From: a virus
Strand: one strand, 5' to 3'
DNA: 36,784 bases
IMG/VR virus record: IMGVR_UViG_3300022539_000370
Location: 1-36,784 of that record
In this document: piece by piece, positions 13,171 through 28,753 of the stretch
How positions within the stretch are numbered: the first letter of the stretch is position 1
Layout: every line of letters begins with the position of its first letter
Notes under the pieces: model-generated
What the model was told of the DNA's origin: nothing
What the model saw: the letters and a program-made list of their open reading frames with translations, nothing else
Database searches by the model: none
Made by a program: the position numbers and the translations under genes

Positions 13171-13221
13171 GCATAACCCAAGCCGCTAACATCAGGGCGT
13201 GAGGTAGGAAAGGAGGGTAAA

Positions 13222-13599: not shown

Positions 13600-13632
13600 A
13601 TATATGCCGTTATCAGGCATTGAGGGATTCGA

Positions 13633-13887
13633 ATGAACCCCCGAATCAAACACCTGAATAATGGCCATATCTATCTTATCAAGAGATGGATAAAGGGCGA
13701 AGGTTCACCGTGTCCGTTTCAAGAGGCATATGGGAAAGTGCCTGATAGATGTAAGATTTGTAGAGGTATCTTTATAGAAGCCCGATATATACCGCCCTGT
13801 CCTTGTGTGCAATATAATATGGATTTTGTTAAGCAAGTGGTAAATCAGACATTAAAAGTGTGGGAAAAAAAAGAGAAACTGAGGTGA
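13633..13887 (+). CDS. Cysteine-rich hypothetical protein (84 aa)
   Basis: ATG 13633. Seven lines of Cys-based spacing: PCPF, RCKICRG and PPCPC, giving a plausible zinc site around residues 27-60. Basic N-terminus (PRIKHLNNGHIYLIKRWIKG) and a helical C-terminus. It precedes TerS by 4 bases and is probably cotranscribed. Not recognised; a nucleic-acid-binding role would fit its basic, zinc-binding character. Confidence 0.6.
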   Translation: MNPRIKHLNNGHIYLIKRWIKGEGSPCPFQEAYGKVPDRCKICRGIFIEARYIPPCPCVQYNMDFVKQVVNQTLKVWEKKEKLR

Positions 13888-13891
13888 AATC

Positions 13892-14338
13892 ATGATAGAA
13901 AACCAGAAACATATAAAGGCCTTCTCATATTATTACAGCCTGGGGGACAAGAGAACGCTTGAGGCGGTTGCTGAACGTTTCAATATCGGCAAGAGGGCTT
14001 TAGAGCGCTGGTCGTCAGTTCTTAACTGGCAGGAGAGGGTTGCTTTAATGGATATTGAAGTAGCCAGGGCATTGAAAAAAAAGGATATCCGGGCAGTCGT
14101 AGCGACAAAGGCACAATACCGGAGAGAGATCCAGAATAATCTGAAAATAGTCAAGGCTTTGATCGGGACGGCAGTCGAAAAATTAAAAGCCGGAACTCTC
14201 GACGTCGAGACGGCGAAGGATTTAGATAAGGCAATGGCATCATTTGACCGGCTTGCGAAACTCGATCTCACGTTGATGGGTGAGGACCCGGGCGACCAAG
14301 TGATAAAGGTAACGGTTAAAGGGGAGGACGACGAATGA
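13892..14338 (+). CDS. terS: Terminase small subunit (148 aa)
   Basis: The N-terminal region has a helix-turn-helix (LEAVAERFNIGKRALERWS at about 27-45) for DNA recognition. The middle is a long charged helix (residues about 60-125) suited to ring oligomerisation, and the end MGEDPGDQVIKVTVKG is a strand typical of TerS C-termini that contact TerL or the portal. It binds the packaging site and presents DNA to TerL. Position two genes before TerL agrees. It contains a copy of the dispersed palindrome at 14195-14210, of interest because pac sites often lie within terS. Confidence 0.8.
   Translation: MIENQKHIKAFSYYYSLGDKRTLEAVAERFNIGKRALERWSSVLNWQERVALMDIEVARALKKKDIRAVVATKAQYRREIQNNLKIVKALIGTAVEKLKAGTLDVETAKDLDKAMASFDRLAKLDLTLMGEDPGDQVIKVTVKGEDDE
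14195..14210. repeat. Dispersed 16-bp palindrome, copy 2, inside terS
   Basis: ACTCTCGACGTCGAGA, read as codons for TLDVE in the TerS frame. Identical to 9205-9220 and 23837-23852. Candidate packaging or protein-binding site. Confidence 0.85.
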
Positions 14339-14511
14339 AAGAAAAAAATTGCTATTGCCATACATGCGAAAAAACTTTCCACTATTTGGGAATCACACGA
14401 CACCGGGCAATGCATAGAGACCGAAAAGAGGATTGTAAAATAACATATACTTATGGCGACACTTATATACATAAATTCTCGAACAGGCATAACCAGGTGA
14501 GAAGTAAATAA
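14335..14511 (+). CDS. C2H2 zinc-finger protein (58 aa)
   Basis: ATG 14335 overlaps the terS stop (ATGA). Residues 8-27 form a classical C2H2 finger: C8-x2-C11-x11-H23-x3-H27, with Phe 15 and Leu 18 at the hydrophobic positions. The rest is basic and His-rich. Single C2H2 fingers are uncommon in bacterial viruses but occur, for example in Ros/MucR-like regulators, though that family has a different spacing. Between TerS and the methyltransferase it may bind DNA during packaging; this is inference. Confidence 0.75.
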   Translation: MKEKNCYCHTCEKTFHYLGITRHRAMHRDRKEDCKITYTYGDTYIHKFSNRHNQVRSK

Positions 14512-14516
14512 CTTAA

Positions 14517-14545
14517 TTTAACTTAATCTGTTTAAATTAGCAGGG
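14517..14545 (+). promoter_or_regulatory. AT-rich inverted repeat upstream of the methyltransferase gene
   Basis: TAATTTAA is exactly complementary to TTAAATTA about 10 bases later, in the 52-base gap before the methyltransferase gene. There is no T run after it, so it looks like an operator rather than a terminator. Confidence 0.35.
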
Positions 14546-14563
14546 AGCGGAGTACAGGCCGAG

Positions 14564-15271
14564 ATGATTAAACCCTACTATCAAGAACCGAATATCACGA
14601 TCTACCATGGCGATTGCCTTGAGATCATACCGGGGCTGCCATTAGTCGATTGTGTCATTGCGGATCCGCCGTTTAATGTCGGCAAGAATTTTGGCTCAAA
14701 GACAAATGACAGGCAGCCACAAGAAAAATACTGGAAATGGTTTAAAGAAAGATTCAAGGAAATATCGAAGCTCGTTGATTCCGGGTACCTATATTCTTTT
14801 CACAGCGATAAAGGAATTTATTTATCCCGGCCCATTATTGAAGGTACCGGCTTTGAATTCATCCAACATATTATCTGGTGGGGTCCAAACGGATATTCGT
14901 CACAACTCCATGAAAAAGGCTGGTCTTGGAGACATGAAATAGCCCAATTTTTTAAAAAAGGAGATCCCGAAGGATTGCTGGTTGAGAAAGGGATATGGTT
15001 TCAGACCGTTATTAAGGCTAATCGCCCGCAAAGCAACTTCAAAGAAGGACGTTTCCATATATCACAAAAGCCGCTTCATTTATATAGGACAATCATAAAA
15101 AGGATGCCGGGCGGGATATTGTTAGATCCTTTTATGGGCTCGGGTACTGCATTATTAGCGGCGAAGGACGAAAACCTTGACGCTATTGGGATTGATATTG
15201 AAGAAAAAAATTGTGAAATAGCGGTGGATAGATTAAGGCAAGAGGTACTACCATTTGCACATCGAGATTGA
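14564..15271 (+). CDS. DNA methyltransferase, DPPF type (235 aa)
   Basis: Motif IV DPPF at 34-37 near the N-terminus and motif I LDPFMGSGTALLAA at about 187-200 near the C-terminus give the beta-class order of amino-methyltransferases (N6-adenine or N4-cytosine). Between them lie the target-recognition segment and HISQKPLHL (about 165-173), the usual motif X region. It transfers a methyl group from S-adenosylmethionine to DNA. No restriction partner is nearby, so it is an orphan, probably protecting phage DNA from host restriction. Its 3' end overlaps the terL start by 17 bases. Confidence 0.9.
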   Translation: MIKPYYQEPNITIYHGDCLEIIPGLPLVDCVIADPPFNVGKNFGSKTNDRQPQEKYWKWFKERFKEISKLVDSGYLYSFHSDKGIYLSRPIIEGTGFEFIQHIIWWGPNGYSSQLHEKGWSWRHEIAQFFKKGDPEGLLVEKGIWFQTVIKANRPQSNFKEGRFHISQKPLHLYRTIIKRMPGGILLDPFMGSGTALLAAKDENLDAIGIDIEEKNCEIAVDRLRQEVLPFAHRD

Positions 15272-16484
15272 TCCTACCGTATTCAACAAAGCCTTCCTTC
15301 CGTATCTGAATGACGACACCCGTACGCAGATTTTTTTCGGGGGATCTTCGTCAGGCAAATCAACTTTTATTGCGCAGCGCGCCATTTATAATCTACTCGA
15401 TGGAGGCCGAAACTATTTAATTGTCCGTAATATTGCTGATACAAATCGAGGCTCGACCTATAAAGAGATTACAAAGAACATTGAAAGTTGGGGAGTGTCA
15501 CGTCTTTTCAAAATCAATAAATCTAATTTAGAAATAACTTGCAGGAATGGGTACCAGATTCTTTTTAAGGGATTGGGCGATATAGAGAAGATAAAATCTA
15601 TCACAGCTCAGAGAGGAGTTATCACAGACATTTGGATTGAAGAAGCGACCGAAACGATAGAAGAAGATATAAAACAATTAAACAAGCGGCTCCGGGGTCA
15701 GACCAGGGTTAAGAAGCGGTTGATCTTATCGTTTAACCCGATTATGCGGAGTCATTGGCTGTTCAAGAAGTTCTTTAAGGATTTTGCCGATAAGGACATC
15801 TTATATCGAGACGAACGGCTGATAATCCTCAAGACGATTTACAAGGATAATCGATTCCTGGAAGATGATGATATTTACGAGCTCGAACATGAGGGGGATA
15901 AATATTGGCATGACGTTTACACATTGGGTAATTGGGGGACCCTGGGCGCGGTAGTTTTCAGTAATTGGGAAGTCCAAGACCTCAGTAAAGTTAAAAAGAA
16001 GTTTGATAATTATAAGAATGGCCTTGATTTCGGGTTCACGAATGATCCGACAGCTTTTGTCCGGATGCATTATGATAAGAAGCGGAAAATCCTTTATATT
16101 ACAGACGAGTTTTATGAAAGAGGGTTGACTAACCAGGAGATCGCCAAGGCGTTAAAGCCGATGATCGGGTCTGAATATGTGACTTGCGACAGCGCGGAGC
16201 CTAAGAGTATTGAGGAGTTGAAACGGGAAAATATCAACGCTTTGGGTGCGCTTAAAGGTAAGGATTCGGTCGGATTCGGGATCCAGTTCTTAAAAGGATT
16301 GAAGATTATCATTGACAAGAATTGTCAGAACGTGATAAATGAATTTCAATTATATCAATGGAAAAAGACCCGGGACGGTGATACACTTAATATCCCGGTT
16401 GATAGAGACAACCATACCATTGATGCCATTAGATACGGTATGGAAGATGAGGCCATTCAGCGCGGTCTTGTCTATGCTGTTTAG
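15255..16484 (+). CDS. terL: Terminase large subunit (409 aa)
   Basis: Start is TTG 15255 with AGAGGT 9 bases upstream; no ATG lies before the ATPase motif. Walker A GGSSSGKST at 29-37, Walker B VITDIWIEEAT at 122-132, coupling segment LILSFNP at 156-162, then an RNase H-like nuclease with acidic residues at Asp 258 (GLDFG), Asp 312 (TCDSAEP) and Asp 390 (DNHTIDAIRY). This is the Terminase_3 layout. It powers packaging and cuts concatemers. Family relatives are known for headful packaging but this cannot be read from the protein alone. The frame continues after its TAG stop into a zinc ribbon. Confidence 0.95.
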   Translation: MHIEIDPTVFNKAFLPYLNDDTRTQIFFGGSSSGKSTFIAQRAIYNLLDGGRNYLIVRNIADTNRGSTYKEITKNIESWGVSRLFKINKSNLEITCRNGYQILFKGLGDIEKIKSITAQRGVITDIWIEEATETIEEDIKQLNKRLRGQTRVKKRLILSFNPIMRSHWLFKKFFKDFADKDILYRDERLIILKTIYKDNRFLEDDDIYELEHEGDKYWHDVYTLGNWGTLGAVVFSNWEVQDLSKVKKKFDNYKNGLDFGFTNDPTAFVRMHYDKKRKILYITDEFYERGLTNQEIAKALKPMIGSEYVTCDSAEPKSIEELKRENINALGALKGKDSVGFGIQFLKGLKIIIDKNCQNVINEFQLYQWKKTRDGDTLNIPVDRDNHTIDAIRYGMEDEAIQRGLVYAV

Positions 16485-16637
16485 GTTACAATACGGTATT
16501 ATACCATTGAGGTAAAAGCAAAATATAAATGTTTAAAATGCGGTCATAGATATGAAGGCGAGCCTGGGCCAACTCAATGCCCTAAATGTGGTCATTTATA
16601 TGTGAAGTGGCTAAATTATAAACTGTGGTGCCCATGA
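16485..16637 (+). CDS. Zinc-ribbon frame directly after the TerL stop codon (up to 50 aa)
   Basis: In the same frame as TerL, immediately after its TAG, 50 sense codons encode a zinc ribbon: CLKCGH then CPKCGH, followed by LYVKWLNYKLWCP, a pattern I associate with short phage zinc ribbons. There is no ATG, GTG or TTG in frame before the cysteines; only ATA or ATT could start it. It may be made by amber readthrough as a TerL extension, start at a rare codon (GAGG at 16509 is too late), or be decaying. TAG is used as an ordinary stop elsewhere here, so recoding of the whole genome is unlikely. Confidence 0.5.
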   Translation, partial: VTIRYYTIEVKAKYKCLKCGHRYEGEPGPTQCPKCGHLYVKWLNYKLWCP

Positions 16638-16790
16638 ATGGAAACTGAAAGCATTGAACATATTAAAAGCACATTGTCGTTGTGTGTTACAGCCTTGAAA
16701 CTTTTACACCCGATAATGAACAAAGACGAACCATGTATTGTCTATGAAGCTTACACAGAGGCAAAACAAGTCTTGAGGTCGTTACAATAG
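16638..16790 (+). CDS. Small hypothetical protein (50 aa)
   Basis: ATG 16638 follows directly on the TGA of the zinc-ribbon frame. Ribosome site weak (GTGGTG). Helical protein (ETESIEHIKSTLSLCVTALKL, in part, then VYEAYTEAKQVLRSLQ), a two-helix hairpin in appearance. Not recognised. The stretch from here to 16888 holds nothing else that I can identify apart from the portal ribosome site. Confidence 0.45.
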   Translation: METESIEHIKSTLSLCVTALKLLHPIMNKDEPCIVYEAYTEAKQVLRSLQ

Positions 16791-16888
16791 CCTAAGTCCA
16801 GATTTTAAGATTAGATTAATACAATATTTGTTTAACCCTTCCAAAACTGCCCCCATCGAGAAATTCCACCCTAAATGGAGCATTAGAA

Positions 16889-18961
16889 ATGCGCAACCCT
16901 ATCGCGTCATGGCTTGACCGGAGGATTGAAAACCGGGCAAGGGCCATAGTGAAGGATTTAACTCAGGGATGGGTAACGTTGACAGACATTCCATTACCCG
17001 GTACTTCTCTGGGATCAAAAGACGCACAGCTTAAAGCCTACCAGAATCATGTCTATAAATGCGTGAATGTCATAAAGAATCGAGCGTCAACTATTCCTTG
17101 GAAGCTGATTTATCGGAGGGGTAGCGAGGAGGCAGAGGTAAAGAGCCACCCGTTTTATGATTTAACCGATCGCCCTAATCCGATATGGACATTCAGACAG
17201 TTGATGGCGTTTATGCAGATTCATCTTGATTTATGCGGGAGGGGATTTTTCCGGCTGATATTGAACGGAGCGGGGAGGCCCCAGGAGATTTGGCCGTTGG
17301 TCCCGAGTAATTTCTCCAAGATTATACCCGGGGAGGACAGCTTGATCGGAGGATATGAGTTTTATGTGCAATCAGGGACGACAGGCAGAATGAGAAGGGT
17401 TATATATCCGGCAGGAGAGATCGTGGATTTCAGGTATCCGCACCCTCACCTGTTATTGGAAGGGGCCAGCCCTATACAGCAGATGGCGTACTCATATGAT
17501 ACAGATTTGGGAATAAGAAAACAGCAGAGAAACTTTTTTCAGAACGCAGCCCGGCCTGATCTGGTATTTGAAACAGCCGATAATATTATACAGGAGCAGG
17601 CAGATCAATTCCTGGCAAAATGGAACGAAAGGCATCAAGGGGTTGACAGGAAGTGGATGCCGGCAATTTTGGGAAGTGGATTGAAGGCGCATGTCTTGAA
17701 TATTGCTAATACTGACCTTGAGTTATTGGGATTAATGGGAGCGTCAAAGGAGGATATTTTAGAGGCGTACGGGGTCCCGGCAGGAAAATTAGGGACGGTT
17801 AAGGACGTGAACAAGGCTAACCAGTTAGGAATTGACCAGGCGTTTAATGAGGAGTGTATACAACCGCGGTTAATCCTCCAGGCAGAGACGATTACATTAC
17901 AACTGCTCCATAAGTACGATCCTAAACTTATGATGGTATTTGACAGCCCTGTTCCGAGCGATAAGAACTTTCAGCTTAAACGCAGGGAAACCCACCTGAA
18001 AAATTACTACAGGTCGATCAATGAGGAGAGGGCGACCGAGGGCCTTGAGCCGGTTGCGTGGGGCGACCAGCCTTGGATACCATTGACTATGATTCAACCG
18101 GGTATGTCACAGCCGATTGGTGAAGGTGATAAGCAAAAAAAACAGTTAAATCAGGATGCTAAGAATAATTTATATGAACTTCACCAACGTCATTTGAGAA
18201 CTTTATCAGGGGGATTGGAACGATGGTTGAAGCGGTATTTTGGCAGATTGAGAAAAGAGGTCGAGCAGAACCTTGATGATAAATGGAAAAGGGTCGAGGG
18301 CGAGACAGCCGGTATGTCGGATAAACGAGTCGAGAAATGGGTCGAGGATCGCAAGGACGTGTGGGGGAGCCTGAATTTTGATCTAAAGAGTGCGGTAGAG
18401 GAAATGAAGGATGGCGCTATACCCTTTGTCGAGGCTACTTTTGCATTGGCATTTGATGAGGCCTTGGGCCTTGTCGGGGTTGATATAGTCGGGGTTGATT
18501 GGAATAATCCGGCTGTAATAGATTTCTTGCGAAAACGAGAGAATTTATTAGTTGGAATCACGAATGATATGTTCGAGCAGGTCAGGGCTCAATTAATTGA
18601 AGGGATCAAATTAGGTGAGAGTGTCGGCCAACTACAGCAGAGGCTTTTGGAAAATACATGGAATCCGTCCCAGGTGAGGGCGTTAGGGATTGCCAGAACA
18701 GAAACGGGGGTTGCGCTCAATAAGGGGACTTTACAGGGATATAAGGATAGCGGAGTAGTTGATCGAAAAGAATGGTGCGGGGGTACGAGAGAAACGCACG
18801 TCACGGCTTATGCTAAATATTCCGGTGAGGGAGCGATCCCGATTAATGAGGATTTTTATGTCGGGGCTGGATCCGGGCCGTGCCCGGGATCAATCGGATT
18901 GCCGGAGGAGGATATAAATTGCTCGTGTTGTACCATACCAGTTATAAGGGAGGGCGAATAA
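16889..18961 (+). CDS. Portal protein fused to a MuF-type minor head domain (690 aa)
   Basis: Residues 1 to about 400 match HK97-type portals: VYKCVNVIKNRASTIPW at 55-71, FMQIHLDLCGRGF, an ASKEDILEAYGVPAGKLG stretch at about 285-302, and INEERATEGLEPVAWGDQPW near 380-396. From about 430 a helical region leads to a MuF/SPP1 gp7-like domain with IARTETGVALNKG at 601-613 and a Cys cluster CSCC at 678-681. Portal and MuF are usually separate neighbouring genes; here a linker of about 30 residues joins them with no stop. The portal ring is the DNA entry channel; MuF-type domains sit at or in the portal vertex. Confidence 0.9.
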   Translation: MRNPIASWLDRRIENRARAIVKDLTQGWVTLTDIPLPGTSLGSKDAQLKAYQNHVYKCVNVIKNRASTIPWKLIYRRGSEEAEVKSHPFYDLTDRPNPIWTFRQLMAFMQIHLDLCGRGFFRLILNGAGRPQEIWPLVPSNFSKIIPGEDSLIGGYEFYVQSGTTGRMRRVIYPAGEIVDFRYPHPHLLLEGASPIQQMAYSYDTDLGIRKQQRNFFQNAARPDLVFETADNIIQEQADQFLAKWNERHQGVDRKWMPAILGSGLKAHVLNIANTDLELLGLMGASKEDILEAYGVPAGKLGTVKDVNKANQLGIDQAFNEECIQPRLILQAETITLQLLHKYDPKLMMVFDSPVPSDKNFQLKRRETHLKNYYRSINEERATEGLEPVAWGDQPWIPLTMIQPGMSQPIGEGDKQKKQLNQDAKNNLYELHQRHLRTLSGGLERWLKRYFGRLRKEVEQNLDDKWKRVEGETAGMSDKRVEKWVEDRKDVWGSLNFDLKSAVEEMKDGAIPFVEATFALAFDEALGLVGVDIVGVDWNNPAVIDFLRKRENLLVGITNDMFEQVRAQLIEGIKLGESVGQLQQRLLENTWNPSQVRALGIARTETGVALNKGTLQGYKDSGVVDRKEWCGGTRETHVTAYAKYSGEGAIPINEDFYVGAGSGPCPGSIGLPEEDINCSCCTIPVIREGE

Positions 18962-18962
18962 G

Positions 18963-19439
18963 ATGAAACGATTTGTCGCAGTAAATATTGTGATTTTAGC
19001 AGGATTGATATTACTGATCGCGCCTAATGCGTGGGGGGCCTTTGAAATTACTTTGGACCTTCCATCAGGGGTCACGACTCAACCGAACCCGTCCGGGACG
19101 ACTCCGTTTAAAATAAATAATGTCGATGCGAACGAAACGATTGATGATGTCCAGTTGCTGGATGGTGATTTTACACTTCAGGTGCAGGAGATCCTCACGG
19201 AGCATGGAGCGACCTCAGGGGTGACTTATACGATCTCGTATAAGGAAAGCCTGATTGATGATTATGCTCACTGGTCGGCTGCAACGGGTTACGTTATTGT
19301 AGGCCCGACGCTTGTGACCTCAGGAGAAACTCCGTATCAGGTCCCGTTCTATCCGAATATGACTAAGTACTTAAAATTTTATATTGAATCAGGCGTGAGT
19401 GGATTCAGACGATTTATAGCGAGAGTTATGTGTAAATAG
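18963..19439 (+). CDS. Exported protein with signal peptide, unknown (158 aa)
   Basis: Signal peptide MKRFVAVNIVILAGLILLIA...AWG with cleavage before AFEITL at about residue 25. The mature chain is Thr/Gly/Pro-rich and beta-like (EITLDLPSGVTTQPNPSG, then KYLKFYIESGVSGFRRF). Starts 1 base after the portal stop, so expressed with it. First of four consecutive signal-peptide genes inserted between portal and protease, where HK97-type phages normally have none. No family recognised; resembles virion or adhesin beta proteins in composition. Confidence 0.8.
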   Translation: MKRFVAVNIVILAGLILLIAPNAWGAFEITLDLPSGVTTQPNPSGTTPFKINNVDANETIDDVQLLDGDFTLQVQEILTEHGATSGVTYTISYKESLIDDYAHWSAATGYVIVGPTLVTSGETPYQVPFYPNMTKYLKFYIESGVSGFRRFIARVMCK

Positions 19440-19445
19440 GGGGTT

Positions 19446-20618
19446 ATGATGAAAAAGATAATTTGTTTAATCGTAATTCTGGCCGTGAGTTTATGGCTGT
19501 ACCCAGTCTTTGCAGGGGCGGATGGCTGGGGCGGGCCTAAGTCAAGAGTTTTCCGGGGTAAGACTGCGGCACCGACTGTCAATGATGATTTAATGGATGG
19601 GTACCGAATAGGCGACATATGGGTCGATGAGGCAAGTAATTGGGCATACATATTGGTTGACAAGTCCGTGGGTGCGGCTGATTGGGATCCGACGAATCGA
19701 GTTGCTTCAGGCACTACATTCGAGGCTACTCAAATCCATGATGGATCTGTGAGTAACATTGAATTTGGGTATCTTGACGGTGGAACAGAAAACATCCAAA
19801 ATGCGCTTGACGGCAAAGAATCTGCTACTTCCAATAATATTGATCCAGATAGATTAGCTGGGGATACGACTGATGATAATTCGATTGACCAGGGCATCAT
19901 CACATGGTGGATAGTTGATTCAGGAGTAACAACGGCAGACACAGAAACCATCATTACAAGTGCCGGAGACTATGTAAGGGTAGAAATAACGGCAGAAGAT
20001 GATCCAAGCGGTGTGACGGTCTCAGAAACTAATCTTGTTCACAATGATATCCGTGTTATCTATAATTCTGGTGTGTCAGAGATTCAACTTAGCTCTCAGC
20101 CTACAAGCACAGGAACAACACAAAAATTACCATACACAGTTTATATTGCTCAATTTGAGTCAGTTGTGCTTAGGTATCAGACTGACCGCTTGGTCTTACA
20201 TAACGGTAACAGACGGATGGACATTGATACGATCAATGCTAAGTCAATTCTTTACTCAAATAGTGGTAGAGCAAATACAACTCAACTAAATGATTTGTCA
20301 AGCATAGTTACATTGTTAGCCAAAGAAGTTGCCGGAACTTTCGTTGATTGTGATGCTCAATCAGGTCTCTCAAATTATCTATTGCCTACGCCTGAACCTG
20401 GCATGAATGTTCGATTCAACCTTTGTATAAGTGGAACTACAATCCAGGTAACGTCCGGTGAAACCTCTTACGTTGACGGTACGGCTACTAATCCCGGAAC
20501 CGGGGCTAAGCAACCTGCTACGGGCGTAGGTTCAATAGGTGAGTACATAGACGCCTGGGTAGCCTGGGATGCCACTAATGCTCAAAATTGCTGGTTCATT
20601 AGAAAACAGGATGATTAA
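19446..20618 (+). CDS. Exported tail-fibre-like protein with signal peptide (390 aa)
   Basis: ATG at 19446 or 19449, after TAGGGGGTT. Signal peptide MMKKIICLIVILAVSLWLYPVFA with cleavage about residue 23. Then a module very like the N-terminal part of phage fibre proteins: FRGKTAAPTVNDDLMDGYRI and GDIWVDEASNWAYILVDKS at about 40-80. The remainder is beta-rich with Ser/Thr/Gly/Val repeats, and ends in DAWVAWDATNAQNCWFIRK, another fibre-type closing segment. A cleavable export signal before a fibre module is the puzzle. Overlaps nothing; the next gene starts two bases after its stop. Confidence 0.8.
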   Translation: MMKKIICLIVILAVSLWLYPVFAGADGWGGPKSRVFRGKTAAPTVNDDLMDGYRIGDIWVDEASNWAYILVDKSVGAADWDPTNRVASGTTFEATQIHDGSVSNIEFGYLDGGTENIQNALDGKESATSNNIDPDRLAGDTTDDNSIDQGIITWWIVDSGVTTADTETIITSAGDYVRVEITAEDDPSGVTVSETNLVHNDIRVIYNSGVSEIQLSSQPTSTGTTQKLPYTVYIAQFESVVLRYQTDRLVLHNGNRRMDIDTINAKSILYSNSGRANTTQLNDLSSIVTLLAKEVAGTFVDCDAQSGLSNYLLPTPEPGMNVRFNLCISGTTIQVTSGETSYVDGTATNPGTGAKQPATGVGSIGEYIDAWVAWDATNAQNCWFIRKQDD

Positions 20619-20619
20619 T

Positions 20620-21375
20620 ATGAAAAAGCTACTGATAGCTTTATTCTCGATAGTTTGTTTTGCCTCCATTGCCTCTGCTAAACCTGTCACTTTTACAGGA
20701 GCGGCAGGGAGCTATGCTACTACTTACACCTGTAAAGTAGACACATATATGTTTGCCTATGATGGAGATTATGACGGAGACACTGATAAAGCCTGTTTTA
20801 TTTCCGGGGCAGCCAACAAGGACGGAACTATTGTTGATGCCACGGTAACATCTTCTTATGTAGAGTTTTCAGCAGTCAACGATTATATCCTATGGGTAGT
20901 TGCAGGTGAAGATGGCATTAATGATGAAGGGCCAATTACAATATATTTTTCTATGTATATCGTTGATGATACTAATGGCGATCTTGATGAAAACGTATTG
21001 GTTGAATCAGTCTCTAATAGCGATAATATGTTAGTCCTTTACACCAGTGACGCAAGTGATTCTGTAGCTGTAACATTTGAATCTGGTGGCACTAAGGTAG
21101 CTATTATTAGCACAGTAGATCCAAATATGGGCGCGTGGTATCGAGTTGGATATTCATATCAGACTGGTGTAGCAGGAAATGATCATGCAATTTCCGTTGT
21201 TACATTAGGAAATGCCCCTAACTGGGAAGAAACTGATAGTGATTTAGTAGCGTGGGATTTTGATGCGGACGATATAACAATAGGGGAAAAGAGTAGTGCA
21301 AAGAACGTTACTGATACTGTAAGAATAAAAGATCTGTGTGTGCTTTCAGGATATAAAACCGCTGATATATTTTAG
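20620..21375 (+). CDS. Exported LamG/lectin-like protein with signal peptide (251 aa)
   Basis: Start 20620 gives a clean signal peptide MKKLLIALFSIVCFASIASA before KPVTFTG; upstream in-frame codons belong to the previous gene. The mature chain follows a concanavalin-like jelly-roll pattern: YVEFSAVNDYILWVVAG, PITIYFSMYIVDD, MLVLYTSDASDSVAVTF, GAWYRVGYSYQTG and ITIGEKSSA, with alternating strands and the WYRV.Y strand typical of LamG domains. Carbohydrate binding is likely by fold. Asp-rich segments at about 48-66 could bind calcium. Fold call is by eye. Confidence 0.8.
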   Translation: MKKLLIALFSIVCFASIASAKPVTFTGAAGSYATTYTCKVDTYMFAYDGDYDGDTDKACFISGAANKDGTIVDATVTSSYVEFSAVNDYILWVVAGEDGINDEGPITIYFSMYIVDDTNGDLDENVLVESVSNSDNMLVLYTSDASDSVAVTFESGGTKVAIISTVDPNMGAWYRVGYSYQTGVAGNDHAISVVTLGNAPNWEETDSDLVAWDFDADDITIGEKSSAKNVTDTVRIKDLCVLSGYKTADIF

Positions 21376-21382
21376 AGGAATT

Positions 21383-23167
21383 ATGAAAAAATTGGTTCTA
21401 TTTTCCGTATTCATTTTGAGTTTAATATTTTTACCTTACGCAAATGCTGACACCCACAATGCCGCAAGTGTCTCACAAGCTGACGTAGAAACAGCAATTG
21501 CCGCTGCAAGCAGTGGTGATCTTGTGATCGTTCCATCGGGCACAGCTACATGGGGTAGCGTGGTCACGATAGACAAAGGAATAACTATCCAGGGACAGAC
21601 GACTGGTTGCCCTCTTTCATGCGTCAGTGGCACGACAATCAATGGGTATGGATTTAAAATTAGTGCCGCTAATGTTCGTATCACTGGTTTTACCCTTGAT
21701 GTTGCTACTGGCTTTGATTGGGGAGGTTCAAAGAATTTTAGGATAGACCATAACAGTGTTACCTGTAGTGGTACTTTTAAGAAAAAGGGAGGTGAAAGCT
21801 TAAAATATGGTCTGATAGATAATAACTATATAGCAGGTGGTGGAACTGAACATTGGTATGCGATGGGTAATGGAAATACCAGTTGGACTACTGGAGGAGA
21901 TGGCGGCCAAGATACAATTGAAGATGGATATGTTTATGTAGAGGATAATTATTTCTACTTCCCACCTTGTCAATATATGGATTCAGGTTCAGGGGCCAGA
22001 ATGGTAATTCGCTTTAATACATTTCAGGAAGATAATACTGCTTCTGGCGGTGTGTTTCTCGCTGCTCATGGGCATCTCTGGGCGCATAGGGATGGCCCCA
22101 GCAATGCTGGTACATATCATTTTGAAATTTACAATAATACTTTTAATTTCGATGGGGCAAATAGAACATGGGGCGGTTTTTTAAGCCCCAGAGGAGGTCG
22201 ATGGTACTGTTTTAATAATACTTTTATTGAAAATGGGAGCGTTTATTTCCGAAATTATGAAAGCACTGGAAGTTATACAGCACTCTGTTCTGTTGCAGCT
22301 CACGAAAGTATGGGCGTACCCCCAGGCCATACATTACCTTGGGCCAGTGATTGCGATAGTTGGCCCTGTCCAATGCAGATCAATAACAGTTATATTTTCG
22401 GCAACACTTTAGACGGTAGTGGCCCCATAGTTGTAAATCAAAGCACAAGTCATATACAAAGCGGTAGGGACTATTTTGCTGAAGAAGATTCAGGTGTTAC
22501 TACTGGCCTTTTTGGAAATATGCCAGGAACTTGTAACGAAGGAGAAGGTTATTGGGCAACGGATAAAGGGACATGGAATTCAACAGGCACAAGTGGCGTT
22601 TTATATAGATGCAATGCGGCTGATACCTGGATAGAGTTTTATGAACCTGAAAACTATCCCCACCCTTTACAGGGCACTTCTGTTGCCATGTCTGGCACGG
22701 CAACAGTAGGAATCAATGAGAGCGATGTTGTAGCGGGTGGAAAACGGATTACATTTATTTCTATTGACGCTTTCGTTTCAACCCTGGGAACCGCTGTTTC
22801 AGCCACAACAGATTTCATAGCCAGCCTTTCGTCAAACAGGAGTGAGACTTATGGATGGAATAACGTTGTCCTGGCCGGCCTGAACCATACCCATTGTACC
22901 CTTGTAAGCGGCAACACTACTTTCCATATAGACCTGCCCGCTTTTGGGAATTATAATATATTTCAAACGGAAGAAAAAATAACACCCAGTCCGCCTGGGA
23001 TAGCATTTGAATCAGGTGTAACACCTACAGGTACATCACCTACGGATTTCAGCATAGGGGTTGAGATTCCCGATGATCCACCCGGGGGCGGGGGATCAGG
23101 GTCGTACTCTGGGACAGGTATGCGATTTACATATTCACCGACAGGCCGGAGGCTTACGACACCGTGA
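21383..23167 (+). CDS. Exported parallel beta-helix protein, pectate-lyase or tailspike-like (594 aa)
   Basis: Start 21383 follows AGAGGAATT; signal peptide MKKLVLFSVFILSLIFLPYANA. Then a right-handed beta-helix pattern: VETAIAAASSGDLVIVPSG, VTIDKGITIQGQTTG, VRITGFTLD, NFRIDHNSVTC, YGLIDNNYI, YVYVEDNYFYF, FEIYNNTFNF and WYCFNNTFIEN, the recurrent N-N-x-I/F turns of pectate-lyase-like and tailspike proteins. C-terminus (about 430-594) is a separate beta domain ending in a Gly-rich linker. Could be a polysaccharide depolymerase. The leader peptide implies secretion by the infected cell rather than simple tail assembly. Confidence 0.85.
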   Translation: MKKLVLFSVFILSLIFLPYANADTHNAASVSQADVETAIAAASSGDLVIVPSGTATWGSVVTIDKGITIQGQTTGCPLSCVSGTTINGYGFKISAANVRITGFTLDVATGFDWGGSKNFRIDHNSVTCSGTFKKKGGESLKYGLIDNNYIAGGGTEHWYAMGNGNTSWTTGGDGGQDTIEDGYVYVEDNYFYFPPCQYMDSGSGARMVIRFNTFQEDNTASGGVFLAAHGHLWAHRDGPSNAGTYHFEIYNNTFNFDGANRTWGGFLSPRGGRWYCFNNTFIENGSVYFRNYESTGSYTALCSVAAHESMGVPPGHTLPWASDCDSWPCPMQINNSYIFGNTLDGSGPIVVNQSTSHIQSGRDYFAEEDSGVTTGLFGNMPGTCNEGEGYWATDKGTWNSTGTSGVLYRCNAADTWIEFYEPENYPHPLQGTSVAMSGTATVGINESDVVAGGKRITFISIDAFVSTLGTAVSATTDFIASLSSNRSETYGWNNVVLAGLNHTHCTLVSGNTTFHIDLPAFGNYNIFQTEEKITPSPPGIAFESGVTPTGTSPTDFSIGVEIPDDPPGGGGSGSYSGTGMRFTYSPTGRRLTTP

Positions 23168-23313
23168 ACAAGAAGAAACGAAAAGTAGAGCCAGAGAAAG
23201 AACCGGAACTTTGGGCCGGGGATGGCAACGCAAAGGGAGTCGTTGTGGCTACGATTGGAAGTATGCTTTTGCTTTGGTGGATGGCGGCGGGCTGTCCTGG
23301 GTGTTTACGATAA
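23164..23313 (+). CDS. Small membrane protein (49 aa, GTG start)
   Basis: GTG 23164 overlaps the beta-helix stop (GTGA). A very basic N-terminus (NKKKRKVEPEKEPE) is followed by one membrane segment (VVVATIGSMLLLWWMAAG) and CPGCLR. Small tail-anchored type. Lies between the exported block and the protease. No family recognised; a weak upstream ribosome site lowers confidence. Confidence 0.5.
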   Translation: MNKKKRKVEPEKEPELWAGDGNAKGVVVATIGSMLLLWWMAAGCPGCLR

Positions 23314-23329
23314 AAAATGGAGGTAAATA

Positions 23330-24538
23330 ATGGAAAAGAAAGTAAAGACAATTCCGTTTGAGATTAAGGACATAAACGAGAAAGATAGGACGTTCCTGGC
23401 CGTGGCGTCGACTGAAACGATTGATCGAGATAATGACAGAATCATGTCTGACGGATGGGATCTGGCAAATTTCAAGAAAAATCCGGTTATCCCATGGGCT
23501 CATAGATATTCAGACCCACCGGTTGCCCAGGCGACAGAGATTAAAATCGCAGACAAACAGCTTGTATTTCAGGCTAAGTTTGCGACAAAAGAAGATTATC
23601 CTTTCGCTGATACAATCTTTAATCTGTATAAAGGCGGGTTTTTAAGATCGTTCTCAGTAGGGTTCATGCCTAAACGGTGGGAACAGGTCGAGCGTGAAAA
23701 GGGTATGGGTAACGATTTTCTTGAACAGGAGCTATGGGAAATTTCAGCTTGCACGGTCCCGAGTAATCCGGAGGCCCTGATCGCAGCAAAGGCTCATGGA
23801 GTGATTACGGATGCAGACTTAAAACTGTTGACTAAAACTCTCGACGTCGAGAAAATAGAGCCTATTGTAACCGAACCAGACGATAAAGGCATAAGTGGAA
23901 GTAAAGACCTACCGATAAATGACAAAGGAAGCTGGGACGCAACGGCAGCTTCCCGGAGAGTTAGATCGTGGGCCGGGGGCCCGGACAAGGACGATGTAGA
24001 TTGGAAAAAATATGGAAAATGTTTTGTGTGGGTCAATCCAGAAGATAAGGAGAGCTTCGGGGGTTACAAATTGCCCTTTGCCGATATTATGGATGGTAAG
24101 GCGACAGCGGTATGGGGAGGCGTTCATAATGCGATGGCGGCTGTCCTGGGAGCCAGGGGCGGGGTAAATTTATCAGACGATCAAAGGCAGCAATGTTATA
24201 ATTTCTTGAAGGGATATTACAAGAAGTTTGACAAACCGGCCCCGGACTTCAGAGAGATCGATTTGCTCGAATTGCAAATTGAGCTTGACAAACTAAAAGA
24301 ACTCACGAATAATTTACACGGCATATTGAAAGGTTTGACAGAAACCCAAATTGAGGATGCGGATTTAGAGACGGCTTTAAAGGGTATGATAAAAGAACCC
24401 GAACTGAAGGAGGAGGACATCCAGGACCAGGCCCAGGAGATAATTGACAAGCATCTGGCCAAGGTGGTCGGAAAAGCGGTCAACAGTGTTTTGGGTATCG
24501 TGGACCCGGATAAACTTAAATTCCATAATAGGAGGTAG
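23330..24538 (+). CDS. Prohead protease, HK97 family, with extra middle and scaffold-like regions (402 aa)
   Basis: Residues 1-160 are a U35/HK97-type prohead protease: DRDNDRIMSDGWDLANFKKNP, then PWAHRYS with His 58, FLRSFSVGF with Ser 109, and LWEISACTVPSNPEAL with Glu 137. Residues about 195-315 (GSWDATAASRRVRSWAGG and GARGGVNLSDDQRQQCYNFL) form an accessory domain seen in other phage proteases. Residues 320-400 are a charged coiled coil like a scaffold or delta domain. It cleaves the capsid delta domain and itself during maturation. AATGGAGGTAAAT precedes the start. Confidence 0.9.
   Translation: MEKKVKTIPFEIKDINEKDRTFLAVASTETIDRDNDRIMSDGWDLANFKKNPVIPWAHRYSDPPVAQATEIKIADKQLVFQAKFATKEDYPFADTIFNLYKGGFLRSFSVGFMPKRWEQVEREKGMGNDFLEQELWEISACTVPSNPEALIAAKAHGVITDADLKLLTKTLDVEKIEPIVTEPDDKGISGSKDLPINDKGSWDATAASRRVRSWAGGPDKDDVDWKKYGKCFVWVNPEDKESFGGYKLPFADIMDGKATAVWGGVHNAMAAVLGARGGVNLSDDQRQQCYNFLKGYYKKFDKPAPDFREIDLLELQIELDKLKELTNNLHGILKGLTETQIEDADLETALKGMIKEPELKEEDIQDQAQEIIDKHLAKVVGKAVNSVLGIVDPDKLKFHNRR
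23837..23852. repeat. Dispersed 16-bp palindrome, copy 3, inside the protease gene
   Basis: ACTCTCGACGTCGAGA, again read in frame as TLDVE. Identical to copies at 9205 and 14195. Confidence 0.85.
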
Positions 24539-24541
24539 TTT

Positions 24542-25771
24542 ATGGAACAAAAAGAGATTATCGCGCTGTTCGAGAAAGTGCTCGATCAGTCGTTGAATGA
24601 GGAGAAGCTGGCCCCATTCATCAACCCGATTGTCGCGAAAGCTCTGGCAGATATTAAAAAAGAGCAGGTTTTGACCGCTGAGGAACTGGCGGCAAGGCAG
24701 GCTGCGGAAGTGAAGTCAACTTTCAGTCAGTTTCTTGGCGATTGTGTGAGAATGAGCAAGGGGCAGGTCCCGGCCTTTATACCGGCAGAGAAATTCATAA
24801 AGGGCATTACCAATATTGACCCGGTATACATGGCCAGCTTAGGTCCTAAGGAGCAGAAAAGCCTGTATGACAGTTCCAATGCCGCAGGCGGTTATTTAGT
24901 GCCGACAGAGGAGTCGAGGACCTTATTGGATTTAACAACTAATTGGGAAGTGATCCCTCCGATGTGCACCCAGGTTCCCATGAGGACCCATCAGATCACA
25001 TTCCCGACTTTGAGCGCAGGAATTACGGCTTATTGGATTCCTGAGGCAACGTCCAGTTCACCGAGTGGTCAGAGCGAAGGAGTAAAGCAGGAGAGCGACC
25101 CGACTTTTGGGCAGATGACTATTACAGCCCATGTGTTGGCTGTTTTGGTTTATGTATCCAATCAGCTTTTGGACGACAGCGATCCGGCAGTAGATACGGT
25201 GCTTTTCAACTTGTTTGCCAAGACCTTAGGAAGGTATCTGGACATTGCGTGCTTGAGGGGTGCGGGAACGGCAACAGACCCGGTTACAGGACTTTCAGGC
25301 CTGATCACCACTAACCTTTTAAGTGCGGGCGCATCGTTTGATTTTGATGACATTATTAATGTCATTTATTCGGTGCTGGATAATTCGGATGGTGGGACGA
25401 CCCAGGTTGATGTCATTGGTCATACAAAGGCAGAAAGAAAGCTGATGAAGGTCAAGGACAATGACGGCCAGTACATCTATAAACGCCCGTTGGATGGCAG
25501 AGGATTGCCGTCGATTTACGGGGAGCCATGGCATCGAGACAATAACATCTCGATAACCTTGGGCGCTGGGAGTAACGAGACCCGGATTTTCTCAGGTGAT
25601 TTTGCCAATTTCGCGTATGTTGGCAGCCGATCCCAAATTGTTATCAAGGCCAATCCCTGGGGGACCGGATTTACGCAGAACCAAACGGCCTTCTTGGCAG
25701 AATTCAGGAAGGGCTTTGCCGTTTCAGACGAGACCCGCTTTGCTAATTTGAGCGGCGTTCCTACAACTTAG
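24542..25771 (+). CDS. Major capsid protein, HK97 fold (409 aa)
   Basis: Layout of the Phage_capsid family: an acidic and helical N-terminal delta region to about residue 107, then SSNAAGGYLVPTEESRTLLD at 111-130, the usual first stretch of mature HK97-type capsids; N-arm and P-domain helices; ISNQLLDD-like VYVSNQLLDDSDPAVD at about 215; RYLDIACLRGAGTATDPVTG, and GLPSIYGEPWHRDNNIS near 318-334. Cleavage by the upstream protease probably lies near residues 105-111. GGAGG lies 6 bases before the start. Followed by a decoration-position gene. Confidence 0.95.
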   Translation: MEQKEIIALFEKVLDQSLNEEKLAPFINPIVAKALADIKKEQVLTAEELAARQAAEVKSTFSQFLGDCVRMSKGQVPAFIPAEKFIKGITNIDPVYMASLGPKEQKSLYDSSNAAGGYLVPTEESRTLLDLTTNWEVIPPMCTQVPMRTHQITFPTLSAGITAYWIPEATSSSPSGQSEGVKQESDPTFGQMTITAHVLAVLVYVSNQLLDDSDPAVDTVLFNLFAKTLGRYLDIACLRGAGTATDPVTGLSGLITTNLLSAGASFDFDDIINVIYSVLDNSDGGTTQVDVIGHTKAERKLMKVKDNDGQYIYKRPLDGRGLPSIYGEPWHRDNNISITLGAGSNETRIFSGDFANFAYVGSRSQIVIKANPWGTGFTQNQTAFLAEFRKGFAVSDETRFANLSGVPTT

Positions 25772-25783
25772 GAGGTGATACAG

Positions 25784-26422
25784 ATGAGTAAAAAGCTGAA
25801 AATATTTGGAATCTTGGCTATTGCGATCCTGTTGACCTTCCCGGGTAATGTTTTTGCAGCCAGGTTTTTCTGTACTGGCATGGTGGGGACGGTAGCAGGG
25901 GGGACATTGATTGTTACACCGGGAGGTAGGGCTTACGGAGCTTTTGTAATTCTCCCGGGAGACTCGAACAACCACACGGTCGTGACCAGTATCTCTGTTA
26001 CTTCGGATAGCGCACTGGTTACAGCGAACGCCTATGTTTATGATAAGGAAGATGAGGCGATAGTAGACAGCCCGAGTATAACGGGAACGAGAGAGCTTAG
26101 TATTAGTTCCGGCGGTGGAAATTTTGACGCGGCTGATCTAATTGTCATTCAGGATCCGGCAGGAAAATATGCATTTGTCGAAAGCGTGGCTTCCTCAGGT
26201 GCCGGCACTATCCTGGTTGCTGGTACTCTTGACAGGGCGGTCGGTATAGGCTGGCGGGTATATGAAATGGAAGAGATTTGCAGGATACCGGCCAGTATCG
26301 ATACCCAGGAATATGAGTCCGATGTTGCGGTCGTTGCAGGCGAGTATGATTCACCTGTTCTCATCTGGCTTGGCGGTTTAACAAGCTGTTCAATTAATTT
26401 CGCGGCAGGCCATTACAAGTAA
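25784..26422 (+). CDS. Signal-peptide protein in the capsid-decoration position (212 aa)
   Basis: Start 25784 has GGAGGTGAT 7 bases upstream; the in-frame ATG 25775 would add 3 residues. Signal peptide MSKKLKIFGILAIAILLTFP...VFA before ARFFCTG. The mature part alternates beta strands and Gly/Ser/Val turns (GAFVILPGDSNNHTVVTSIS and DLIVIQDPAGKYAFVESVAS), a jelly-roll-like composition. The gene after the major capsid usually encodes a cytoplasmic decoration protein; a Sec signal there is unexpected. Either the decoration protein has been replaced or this is another exported surface protein. Confidence 0.8.
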   Translation: MSKKLKIFGILAIAILLTFPGNVFAARFFCTGMVGTVAGGTLIVTPGGRAYGAFVILPGDSNNHTVVTSISVTSDSALVTANAYVYDKEDEAIVDSPSITGTRELSISSGGGNFDAADLIVIQDPAGKYAFVESVASSGAGTILVAGTLDRAVGIGWRVYEMEEICRIPASIDTQEYESDVAVVAGEYDSPVLIWLGGLTSCSINFAAGHYK

Positions 26423-26442
26423 TCTTTAACGTATTGATGATG

Positions 26443-26464
26443 CCCCGGAGAGAAATTTCCGGGG
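26443..26464 (+). terminator. Strong hairpin after the capsid genes
   Basis: CCCCGGA (26443-26449) pairs perfectly with TCCGGGG (26458-26464), loop of 8. Only TTAATT follows, so it may be a partial terminator or a transcript-stabilising hairpin that lets capsid mRNA accumulate above the downstream genes. Confidence 0.5.
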
Positions 26465-26482
26465 TTAATTCAAGGAGAACGC

Positions 26483-26671
26483 ATGAAGATTGAGGCATTG
26501 GTCAGGTTTAACGAGAGACCGAAGGGTACTGTATGGGATGCTGACGATGAGGATGCCAAAAAATGGATCGGGGAAAAATTGGCTAAGAAAACTGACAAGC
26601 CTATTACGAAAACACCAGTTAAGCCACCTAAGGATACGATGGCAAAAGATTCAAAGGCTACTACGAAATAA
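26483..26671 (+). CDS. Small head-region protein (62 aa)
   Basis: CAAGGAG precedes ATG 26483. N-terminal KIEALVRFNERPKGTVWDA resembles the small proteins found just after capsid genes in many phages (a K..ALV.F....G....G.E start), while the C-terminal third is a Lys/Pro/Thr-rich basic tail. Function unknown, perhaps a head-completion accessory. The next gene must start inside it, in another frame. Confidence 0.65.
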   Translation: MKIEALVRFNERPKGTVWDADDEDAKKWIGEKLAKKTDKPITKTPVKPPKDTMAKDSKATTK

Positions 26672-27752
26672 CGTTCACTCGATCCTGATTTTATTGGTTG
26701 TATTCTATCCAGTCCGCGGGTATATGGCCGCTGATGGTCATAATTTTATCGCCTATTATGCTGTGTTGATGACAGGCATTTTATTTTTGCCTATTCCGTG
26801 GCCGATTAAATTATTCGCCTGGGTTTGTGGGTTGTCATGTATCCAAATGCAGTGGATGGCAGCGAACCTATCCGCATGGTTTGTCAAGCTGTATGCATCG
26901 GCCAACTGTGATTTTCAGTTCATTTTAATCTTCATAGTTTTCCTTTCTTTGATTATTCTCTTAAAGCCAAGTATGAATTCATGGCTTAATCTATTGGTAG
27001 TAATTGCATTGATCGAAATTATGAGAATATCTGCTCAACGATTGGGATGGGACCCGGTATTTGTACCGATGGGAACTTGCAAAACAATAACCGTTGCGGC
27101 GGGGTCTCATGGAAATATTGGCTGGACGGGCATGGCACTTGCTATGTGTGGCCCGGCCTTTTTTCGTAAGAGGTTATGGATAGGCCTGATCCCGTTGGCC
27201 GGAGCATTGTATATTTTAAAGTCGAGTACCCCGGTTGTGGCTTTAGCGGCGGCTGGCATGCTTTTTGCGCTTTACAGATTCTCATGTCGGGGGCGAATCT
27301 GGGCCATATCCGGTATTTTAATGGCAGTTCTGGCCTATGTTATTTATGACCCGGTAATGATCGGAGGGGGCCTGAACACCCGGTTAATGAATTGGAACAG
27401 GGCCTGGGCTTTATGTCTTGGCCAGAGTCATTCATTGATCGGTTATGGATTAGGGTCGTGGATCGTTCTTTTCCCTGGAGGAGGTTTTAATTTCCACAGG
27501 GCTCATTGTGAGCCTATACAGGTTTATTTTGAGCTTGGGATGCTGGGCGTGCTCGTCCTGCTTTTGTACGGGAGATATTTAATAAAAAGATTTCTCGATG
27601 GGGGCAGAGGCAGGGCGAGCCTCCTTGCCAGTTGCGGCATGGTGACTGTAATAATGTGCAGTTTAGGAAATTTTCCCTTTCATTTGGCGGGTACGGCGAT
27701 TATCGCGGTGGGCTGGATGGGAATATTTGAAGTGGCGACCCGCAATGATTGA
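26538..27752 (+). CDS. Polytopic membrane protein, O-antigen polymerase/ligase-like (Wzy_C), about 404 aa
   Basis: About 11 hydrophobic segments run from SILILLVVFYP to AIIAVGWMGIF. The best family clue is GYGLGSWIVLFPGGG followed by RAHCEPIQVYFELGMLGVLV, corresponding to the G.G......HN.yLq...ElGl.G signature of Wzy_C O-antigen polymerases and WaaL ligases, though the usual HN is HC here. Such proteins join saccharides at the periplasmic face. The start is uncertain: TTG 26490 and ATGs 26538, 26547 and 26553 all lie inside the previous gene; 26538 has AAGGG upstream. Phage Wzy proteins can change host serotype. Its place in the head operon is unusual. Confidence 0.75.
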   Translation: MLTMRMPKNGSGKNWLRKLTSLLRKHQLSHLRIRWQKIQRLLRNNVHSILILLVVFYPVRGYMAADGHNFIAYYAVLMTGILFLPIPWPIKLFAWVCGLSCIQMQWMAANLSAWFVKLYASANCDFQFILIFIVFLSLIILLKPSMNSWLNLLVVIALIEIMRISAQRLGWDPVFVPMGTCKTITVAAGSHGNIGWTGMALAMCGPAFFRKRLWIGLIPLAGALYILKSSTPVVALAAAGMLFALYRFSCRGRIWAISGILMAVLAYVIYDPVMIGGGLNTRLMNWNRAWALCLGQSHSLIGYGLGSWIVLFPGGGFNFHRAHCEPIQVYFELGMLGVLVLLLYGRYLIKRFLDGGRGRASLLASCGMVTVIMCSLGNFPFHLAGTAIIAVGWMGIFEVATRND

Positions 27753-28146
27753 GCTAGAGGGGTGGGATCAAGAAAAATTAATAGATTTATTAAGTGATTT
27801 TGACGAAATCAATTTAGACGGAATCGAATTTGAAGGGAACGATTTAGACAGTTTTTTAAGCCAGGATAAACAAGGGAAATTAACTACACGTGCTTATAGA
27901 TTCAGGGCGCGAAAGTTCTTAAAAAACAGATGTGAAGCATGTAGCGCTGTTAAAAGGTTGCAAATACACCATAAGGACGGAGAGATTATGCATAACACAC
28001 AAGACAATGTTCAGACGTTATGTATTTATTGTCATAAATTTTTACACGATATGGCTCAGAGATTGAAGTTGGTAAATCCTGGAAGTTTAGCGTCTCCTAT
28101 ATTGATTAAATGTAGGAAAGTGGAGAGCAAAGATGGGGACCTATGA
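27745..28146 (+). CDS. HNH endonuclease (133 aa)
   Basis: ATG 27745 overlaps the previous stop (27750-27752). The C-terminal half has a complete HNH site: C63-x2-C66, HH at 75-76 (LQIHHKDGE), N84 region (IMHNTQDNV), and CIYCHKFLH with C93, C96, H97 and H101. The two Cys pairs bind structural zinc. The N-terminal 50 residues are acidic. Phage HNH proteins near packaging or head genes often assist terminase cleavage; homing is the alternative. The next gene starts 14 bases before its end. Confidence 0.85.
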   Translation: MIELEGWDQEKLIDLLSDFDEINLDGIEFEGNDLDSFLSQDKQGKLTTRAYRFRARKFLKNRCEACSAVKRLQIHHKDGEIMHNTQDNVQTLCIYCHKFLHDMAQRLKLVNPGSLASPILIKCRKVESKDGDL

Positions 28147-28753
28147 TTTAACTACGACAGCGCTGGTAAAAACGTATGAGGGAATCACGGCAGCGACTGA
28201 TGATACCTTGATCGGGTATTTGATCGAGAAGGTGACAGCACTGTTTGAGAGCTATTGCGGCCGGAAATTTCTGACGAGAGTTTATGATCCGGATAGTTTG
28301 AGCGAGCCGGATATCAGCCAGGACGATTGTATCCTTGACGGTTTGGAAAATCCTTTGAACAGGAAAATCTTATATTTACCCCAAAGGCCGATTATTACGA
28401 TCACGACAGTTAAGATAAATGAAACGGCATATACCGAATCAACAGATGTTTATACCTCAGGCTGGTATATTCACAACAGGAAGGCCGGCGCCCTGGGCTT
28501 AAGAGGGTACGATTGGCTCGCGGGGGCCAGAAATATCAAGATAAAATATACAGCCGGCTATGCCACCATCCCGTATGATTTGGCCTATGCCTGTATTGAG
28601 CAGGTGGTCTGGTCATTCAAGCAGGGCAAGAAAGAGCATAAATTAGGATTGACTTCCATTAATCTGGCAGAGGGATCGATTGGGCTCGTGACAGGGCCGT
28701 TGTTGCCATCAGTCAAGCAAGTGCTTAATCTATATCGGAATATAGCGATATGA
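28133..28753 (+). CDS. Head-tail connector, HK97 gp6-like (206 aa)
   Basis: The helical N-terminus (LIGYLIEKVTALFESYCGRKF) followed by LPQRPIITITTVKINE at about 82-98, YDWLAGARNIKIKYTAGYATIPYDL in parts at 124-148, and a C-terminal helix is the typical layout of gp6/QLRG-type head-tail connectors, the ring placed below the portal. It overlaps the HNH gene by 14 bases and the next gene by 4. AGAGCAAAG lies upstream. Confidence 0.85.
   Translation: MGTYDLTTTALVKTYEGITAATDDTLIGYLIEKVTALFESYCGRKFLTRVYDPDSLSEPDISQDDCILDGLENPLNRKILYLPQRPIITITTVKINETAYTESTDVYTSGWYIHNRKAGALGLRGYDWLAGARNIKIKYTAGYATIPYDLAYACIEQVVWSFKQGKKEHKLGLTSINLAEGSIGLVTGPLLPSVKQVLNLYRNIAI

Follow-up and report, generated by a model that had tools for sequence, protein, structure and literature searches.

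Four consecutive signal-peptide genes between portal and prohead protease in an HK97-type siphovirus: a candidate late module directed at the host surface

By the common view, tailed phages produce their fibres in the cytoplasm, and fibre-like and beta-helix genes of environmental viruses are usually annotated as "tail fibre" or "depolymerase". What, then, is the role of four consecutive genes of this kind that lie inside a head module and carry signal peptides? The question is raised by the IMG/VR virus record IMGVR_UViG_3300022539_000370, analysed here over its full length of 36,784 bases (the window), in which such genes occupy positions 18963-23167. The virus is an HK97-type siphovirus. 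A 55-base direct repeat is present at both ends of the record, and the last gene runs into the first, so that the assembly is circular and the genome complete. On balance, we favour the reading that these four genes, named i1 to i4 in their order and together called the cassette, would form a late, swappable module exported by the Sec pathway. This module would act on the host envelope or exopolysaccharide, would not be part of the virion and would be separate from the normal virion fibres.

The cassette is made up of four co-directional genes on the + strand, with gaps of 1-7 bp. On its left lies the gene of the portal, which has a fused Mu gpF-like C-terminal domain (16889..18961, + strand), and on its right that of the prohead protease (S78; 23330..24538, + strand). 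The genes, all on the + strand, encode a signal-peptide protein of 158 aa (i1, 18963..19439), a fibre-like protein of 390 aa with the signal peptide MMKKIICLIVILAVSLWLYPVFA (i2, 19446..20618), a beta-rich protein of 251 aa with the signal peptide MKKLLIALFSIVCFASIASA (i3, 20620..21375) and a right-handed beta-helix protein of 594 aa (i4, 21383..23167), in which the signal peptide MKKLVLFSVFILSLIFLPYANA is followed by DTH. A Shine-Dalgarno-like stretch is found 5' of each gene, the weakest being that of i3. Because the genes are densely packed on the same strand as the head genes and the gaps contain no + strand terminator-like site, late expression of the cassette is to be expected.

The signal peptides were evaluated with a home-made rule, and not with SignalP. 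The rule asks for a positively charged n-region, a nine-residue hydrophobic core and small residues at -3 and -1, and its threshold was set after the sequences had been seen. All four cassette genes pass, in agreement with the initial annotation, which had placed four consecutive signal-peptide genes at these coordinates between portal and protease. The background rate by the same rule is 4 of 809 open reading frames (ORFs) with a length of 100 aa or more, taken from distant phage loci (0.5%), and shuffled versions of each cassette protein equal its own score 0-4 times per 5000. The genome contains six non-lipoprotein genes with signal peptides. Two of them, at 606-2276 and 25784-26422, lie outside the cassette, and in this respect the coordinates first given were incomplete. 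With six such genes spread over about 28 late genes, four in a row would arise by chance with p about 0.017. Two lipoprotein genes, at 2703 and 13222, also pass the rule. Within the cassette, the signal peptides of i3 and i4 arise from internal ATGs, in-frame upstream starts being present at 20569 and 21338, and the cleavage site of i1 is ambiguous and weak (..IAPNAWGA..). The cysteine content of the mature exported proteins is 1.48% vs. 0.79% (p 0.01), which fits folding in an oxidising compartment. As judged from their N-termini, the cassette proteins would thus be substrates of Sec export.

Is the cassette a fixed part of the head module? A clade of related phages was gathered by searches with the portal and capsid proteins. 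Directly after the portal gene, signal-peptide genes number four in the window, two in L005 and at least two in L152 before its contig ends. The first genes of this slot in L005 and L152 are 47% identical to each other, and i1 is homologous to both (25-26% identity over the shared part; none of 150 shuffles equals the score). Hence, a search of related phages for the same insertion, which had been proposed with the initial annotation, yields two further phages with exported genes in this slot. The portal gene adjoins the protease gene in L003, L004, L006/L007, L012, L015, and L111, and the slot of L002 has no room for such genes. The slot is therefore empty in most relatives, at least seven in number, and the term "inserted", used when the region was first described, is appropriate. 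Since portal adjoins protease in the relatives without the cassette, the cassette is optional and dispensable.

A possible activity of the module is suggested by i4. The folds closest to its predicted structure are those of an alginate lyase (Z 22.2), of RbmB (Z 21.6), of the phage depolymerase Kp32gp38 (Z 21.0), and of the adhesin PfbA (Z 20.9). At the sequence level, i4 matches no Pfam family at E <= 1, and comparison with NCBIfam gives only a weak generic beta-helix match (E 0.006) and no curated lyase family. As a single query, i4 has no relatives in viral contigs or cultured phages. Two homologues (L135 and L136) were found among the 297 Desulfobacterota genomes searched. Both are signal-peptide beta-helix proteins encoded within exopolysaccharide clusters, near an asparagine-synthase-like amidotransferase resembling that of XrtA/PEP-CTERM systems, glycosyltransferases, and a Pfam-supported Wzy_C O-antigen ligase. 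When the alignment of i4 with these two proteins was used as the query, nine viral contigs with homologues were obtained. Like i4, most of its phage homologues bear a signal peptide. The mature start DTH is common to i4 and L136, and bacterial and phage homologues agree in having the signal and the same start of the mature protein (A then DTH). Several polar residues are invariant in the family (Y185, E187, D188, R210, H235, E248, and R290), and a Cys pair (302/329) is near-invariant, as would fit an enzyme that folds under oxidising conditions. Thus, the predicted fold of i4 is that of a tailspike depolymerase, but i4 is neither leaderless nor encoded in the tail module. The combination of a beta-helix, a signal peptide, and a family occurring in exopolysaccharide clusters is that expected of an exported exopolysaccharide lyase (RbmB-like or PL6). 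The surface and polysaccharide reading first offered for the region is in part borne out: the tight packing with head genes and the exported i4 homologues of bacterial exopolysaccharide clusters both fit it.

Similar gene runs occur in other phages. An i4 homologue ends a run of consecutive signal-peptide genes in L138 (four genes), L140 (five), and L141 (three). Within three genes of an i4 homologue, 9 of 49 genes bear a signal; for the remaining genes of these loci the figure is 2 of 60 (p 0.012), and for the background it is 4 of 809 (p 2e-9). In the podovirus L139, whose capsid belongs to another family (phrog_3437), the capsid gene is directly followed by one with a signal peptide, and an exported beta-helix is encoded further down. 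As the phages with i4 homologues differ in their capsids or terminases, the trait is modular and not a quirk of one lineage. In the L141 relative of i4, encoded at 7995-10106, residues 573-677 form a C-terminal domain that is also found in the cultured Marinobacter phages PS3 and PS6, there in signal-less proteins. Hence, one and the same domain exists with and without an export signal.

The other cassette proteins differ in what can be said of them. i2 carries phage tail-fibre motifs (GDIWVDE..GAADW and EFGYLDGGTENIQNALDGK), matches phrog_33012 (E 1e-6) and has weak matches to a Rhizobium phage tail fibre and to Pelagibacter phage HTVC106P. i3 has no detectable relative, including in viral contigs. 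Of the contents first proposed for the region, the fibre-like character of i2 and the beta-helix of i4 are thus retained, and the LamG-like content of i3 is unsupported by every database searched. i1 was considered as a relative of capsid-decoration proteins, but the profile comparison failed; sequence searches of the PDB with the i1 and post-capsid profiles gave chance matches only. Another fibre-like protein with a signal peptide (MKYWIRIILALSLFMAVPVLA) is encoded at the end of the tail module (606..2276, + strand). Its gene has an ATGA overlap with the preceding one, and its product shows a weak CBM_4_9 similarity and, searched as 585-2276, no match in cultured phages. On the 3' side of this gene, at 2286-3020, a small membrane protein is followed by a lipoprotein with the lipobox LGGCAT (the gene at 2703). 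These genes probably have holin/spanin functions, the lipoprotein probably being spanin-related.

The remaining signal-peptide gene (25784..26422, + strand; 212 aa) is directly 3' of the gene of the HK97-type major capsid protein (24542..25771, + strand). A homologue with an N-terminal export signal is found in every phage-like member of the clade where the position is visible, that is, in 12 of 12 non-redundant phages (L003, L004, L005, L006/L007, L009, L011, L012, L014, L086, L093, L111, and the window), the signals being less canonical in L004 and L009. In L004 (10732-11499), the N-terminus KRNKGFSLAGLLVMIVFLIIGLIA resembles a type IV prepilin leader and not a Sec signal peptide, and it shows no clear cleavage site. 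Across the family, identity between the mature sequences falls to <20%, and many of them begin with D-P/S-I/L-F right after the cleavage site. A signal-bearing post-capsid gene is present in none of roughly 67 more distant loci, and it is absent from the related head clusters of Desulfarculia. This conserved gene is a stronger export feature than the portal-protease cassette. The family has no match in cultured phages and no significant Pfam or PHROG match. In the predicted structure (mature-domain pLDDT about 80-94), a beta domain is split by the insertion of a small barrel. This barrel resembles those inserted into tail-tube, tail-tip, tailspike, and capsid proteins of phages (Mystique Z 12.2; VP1 capsid Z 9.2). 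Taken with the N-terminus, the model suggests that a virion-like fold bears an export signal. The gene follows the capsid gene, as that of a decoration protein would; the leaderless cytoplasmic synthesis of such proteins is not what its N-terminus indicates.

The Desulfarculia clusters have the compact order portal-protease-capsid-gp6-gp10. They are found in about 16 of 63 Desulfarculia genomes, including that of the isolate Desulfocarbo indianensis SCBM (L099, L108, L116-L126, and others). Their capsid is 45-48% identical to that of the window. There is usually one cluster per genome, in one case adjoining host genes, and the cluster looks like a vertically inherited, gene-transfer-agent-like element. 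Nearly all capsid matches among genomes come from Desulfarculia and other Desulfobacterota, which is evidence, though not proof, that the host of the virus is a member of the Desulfobacterota.

How might such a module work? The cassette proteins would be made alongside the head proteins, late in infection. The host Sec machinery would carry them across the inner membrane, signal peptidase would trim them, and they would fold in the periplasm and get to the surface or the medium, at lysis at the latest. There, i4 would cut or remodel the host exopolysaccharide, and i1 to i3, together with the tail-end protein encoded from 606, would attach to glycans or receptors of the surface. The benefit is likely to be a looser matrix that lets the progeny leave, and progeny or rivals that are kept from sticking to the dying cell. 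The GH32 levan enzymes of Bacillus phages have no signal peptide (PMC4595243), which means that release by lysis does not need one. That the signal is kept in the present proteins suggests a need for them to arrive in the periplasm or at the surface ahead of lysis, or to fold there.

Several points weigh against this proposal. The export call is a sequence heuristic only, the host is known by inference only, and the proposed mechanism includes no route across the outer membrane. i2 and the post-capsid protein show features typical of virion proteins, i3 is without relatives, and i1 is without an assigned function. Finally, the i4 model is overall of low confidence (mean pLDDT 52.6, the first 300 residues being better), and, with PfbA ranking close, the beta-helix may be that of an adhesin or that of an enzyme.

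The kept signal peptides, which argue for action before lysis, would also suit a role in the living infected cell, be it the conversion of its surface or the exclusion of superinfecting phages. Exported proteins and a Wzy-like membrane protein would then change or mask the receptor and block further adsorption. The membrane protein in question is encoded (26664..27752, + strand, start uncertain) after the exported post-capsid gene and ahead of the connector; it is polytopic and O-antigen-ligase/Wzy-like by pattern. Counterparts follow the post-capsid gene in L006 (8677-9975), L011 (4936-6126), L111 (7170-8282), and, more diverged, L093 (2306-3400). In the unrelated podovirus L139, a membrane protein that is Wzy-like by eye (6302-7795) lies between the exported genes. 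However, the label comes from this pattern and from a weak profile match (hhalign to a true Wzy_C protein, E 0.0013, probability 18%), so that the Wzy assignment of 26664-27752 is unconfirmed; no Pfam, PHROG or NCBIfam match is found for it. Moreover, the membrane protein is missing from several relatives that retain the exported post-capsid gene. No integrase is present among the early genes scanned (the small ORFs were scanned in part), which makes long-term lysogenic conversion unlikely. Exclusion in the living cell is a possible but unlikely explanation.

The virion-like fold of the post-capsid protein leads to another explanation, in which the exported proteins belong to the virion as decorations or side fibres. 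They would form disulfides and fold in the periplasm, and would dock on capsids or tails once lysis mixes the compartments. The position of the cassette among head genes agrees with this idea, yet the portal-protease cassette is absent in most relatives. The tail-fibre motifs of i2 also point this way, as does the signal-peptide gene that follows the capsid gene in L139, whose product has a Phage_depo_C-like end (E 7e-4, below cut-off); the window, however, has an ordinary tail gene without signal peptide, which spans the record ends (36226..609). As for the post-capsid protein itself, its gene adjoins the capsid gene in all twelve phages, but the inserted barrel is a common small fold and no profile link connects the protein to the signal-less post-capsid proteins of distant relatives. 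To our knowledge, no established tailed phage assembles via exported virion parts. We consider that the exported proteins are unlikely to be virion components. A wider form of the idea supposes a split assembly route in several unrelated lineages, in which decorations and side fibres pass through Sec, acquire their fold in the oxidising periplasm and join capsids only at lysis, the post-capsid protein being the conserved core and the cassette a set of interchangeable add-ons; this we hold to be rather improbable. Maturation outside the cytoplasm, also raised in the initial annotation, is kept as an alternative in view of the virion-like fold of the conserved post-capsid protein; nothing requires such maturation.

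It is very doubtful that the N-termini are non-functional signals, that is, hydrophobic anchors or products of wrong start codons that would leave the proteins in the cytoplasm or the inner membrane. The prepilin- or anchor-like N-terminus of the L004 homologue and the weak cleavage site of i1 would be explained in this way. Nevertheless, the export signal is kept in the twelve post-capsid homologues though their mature parts diverge, bacterial and phage i4 homologues share signal and mature start, and the background rate is low. Lastly, an assembly chimera or a stray host insertion, which the low third-position GC of i2 to i4 (0.28-0.37 vs. about 0.5 in head genes) might evoke, is already contradicted by the portal and signal-peptide genes of the independent contigs L005 and L152 and by the terminal repeat that closes the window, and is hardly credible.

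The rest of the late region is ordered as follows. The terminase gene starts at 15255, and the region ahead of it encodes a predicted lipoprotein (13222-13599; LFSCAT). Downstream of the membrane protein gene, an HNH endonuclease-like gene (27727-28146) precedes the connector gene, which starts at 28133. A gp10-like gene starts at 28750, and the tail genes extend up to 36226 and then across the record ends.

The favoured reading, a late exported surface module, would have consequences for annotation. If runs of exported fibre-like or beta-helix proteins are common in structural modules, many current labels are wrong about the site of action. Phages would then direct a late programme, so far overlooked, against the coat of their host. 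Indeed, the similar runs in unrelated environmental viruses suggest an action on the surface coat of the host before or during the burst. The conserved post-capsid gene makes the choice between a surface module and extracellular assembly directly testable.

Exported phage proteins that alter the host surface include Lom, Bor, Cor, and Llp of T5, several of which are encoded near structural genes. These are single small membrane proteins or lipoproteins, whereas the cassette is a run of large, fibre-like, soluble proteins. The tailspike depolymerases of phages (Kp32gp38 of a Klebsiella phage, LKA1 gp49) share the right-handed beta-helix with i4, the predicted structure of which is closest to these proteins and to polysaccharide lyases. 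However, tailspikes are virion parts without signal peptide, encoded in tail modules, whereas i4 has a signal peptide and is encoded between portal and protease. RbmB of Vibrio cholerae is a beta-helix exopolysaccharide lyase with a predicted signal peptide, encoded in a biofilm cluster (PMC11637428). It resembles i4 in its beta-helix and its signal peptide and, as far as the bacterial i4 homologues are concerned, in its exopolysaccharide-gene neighbourhood. It differs from i4 in sequence (about 15% identity over the structural alignment), and i4 is phage-borne, with a lyase activity that is only predicted. In phages of Porphyromonas gingivalis, several genes of unknown function are adapted to the general secretion pathway of the host (five genes, one phage family; PMC10367356). 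That host belongs to another phylum, and the genes are not described as consecutive fibre-like genes of a head module. The GH32 levan enzymes of the Bacillus phages SP10, phi NIT1, and SPG24 likewise have an extracellular polymer as predicted target and, unlike i4, are signal-less (PMC4595243). Phage-encoded exported proteins as such are thus already known in single cases. In the open-access literature on phage secretomes and signal-peptide tail fibres, only the precedents given above were found, and no account of fibre-like exported genes that stand in a row within a head module.

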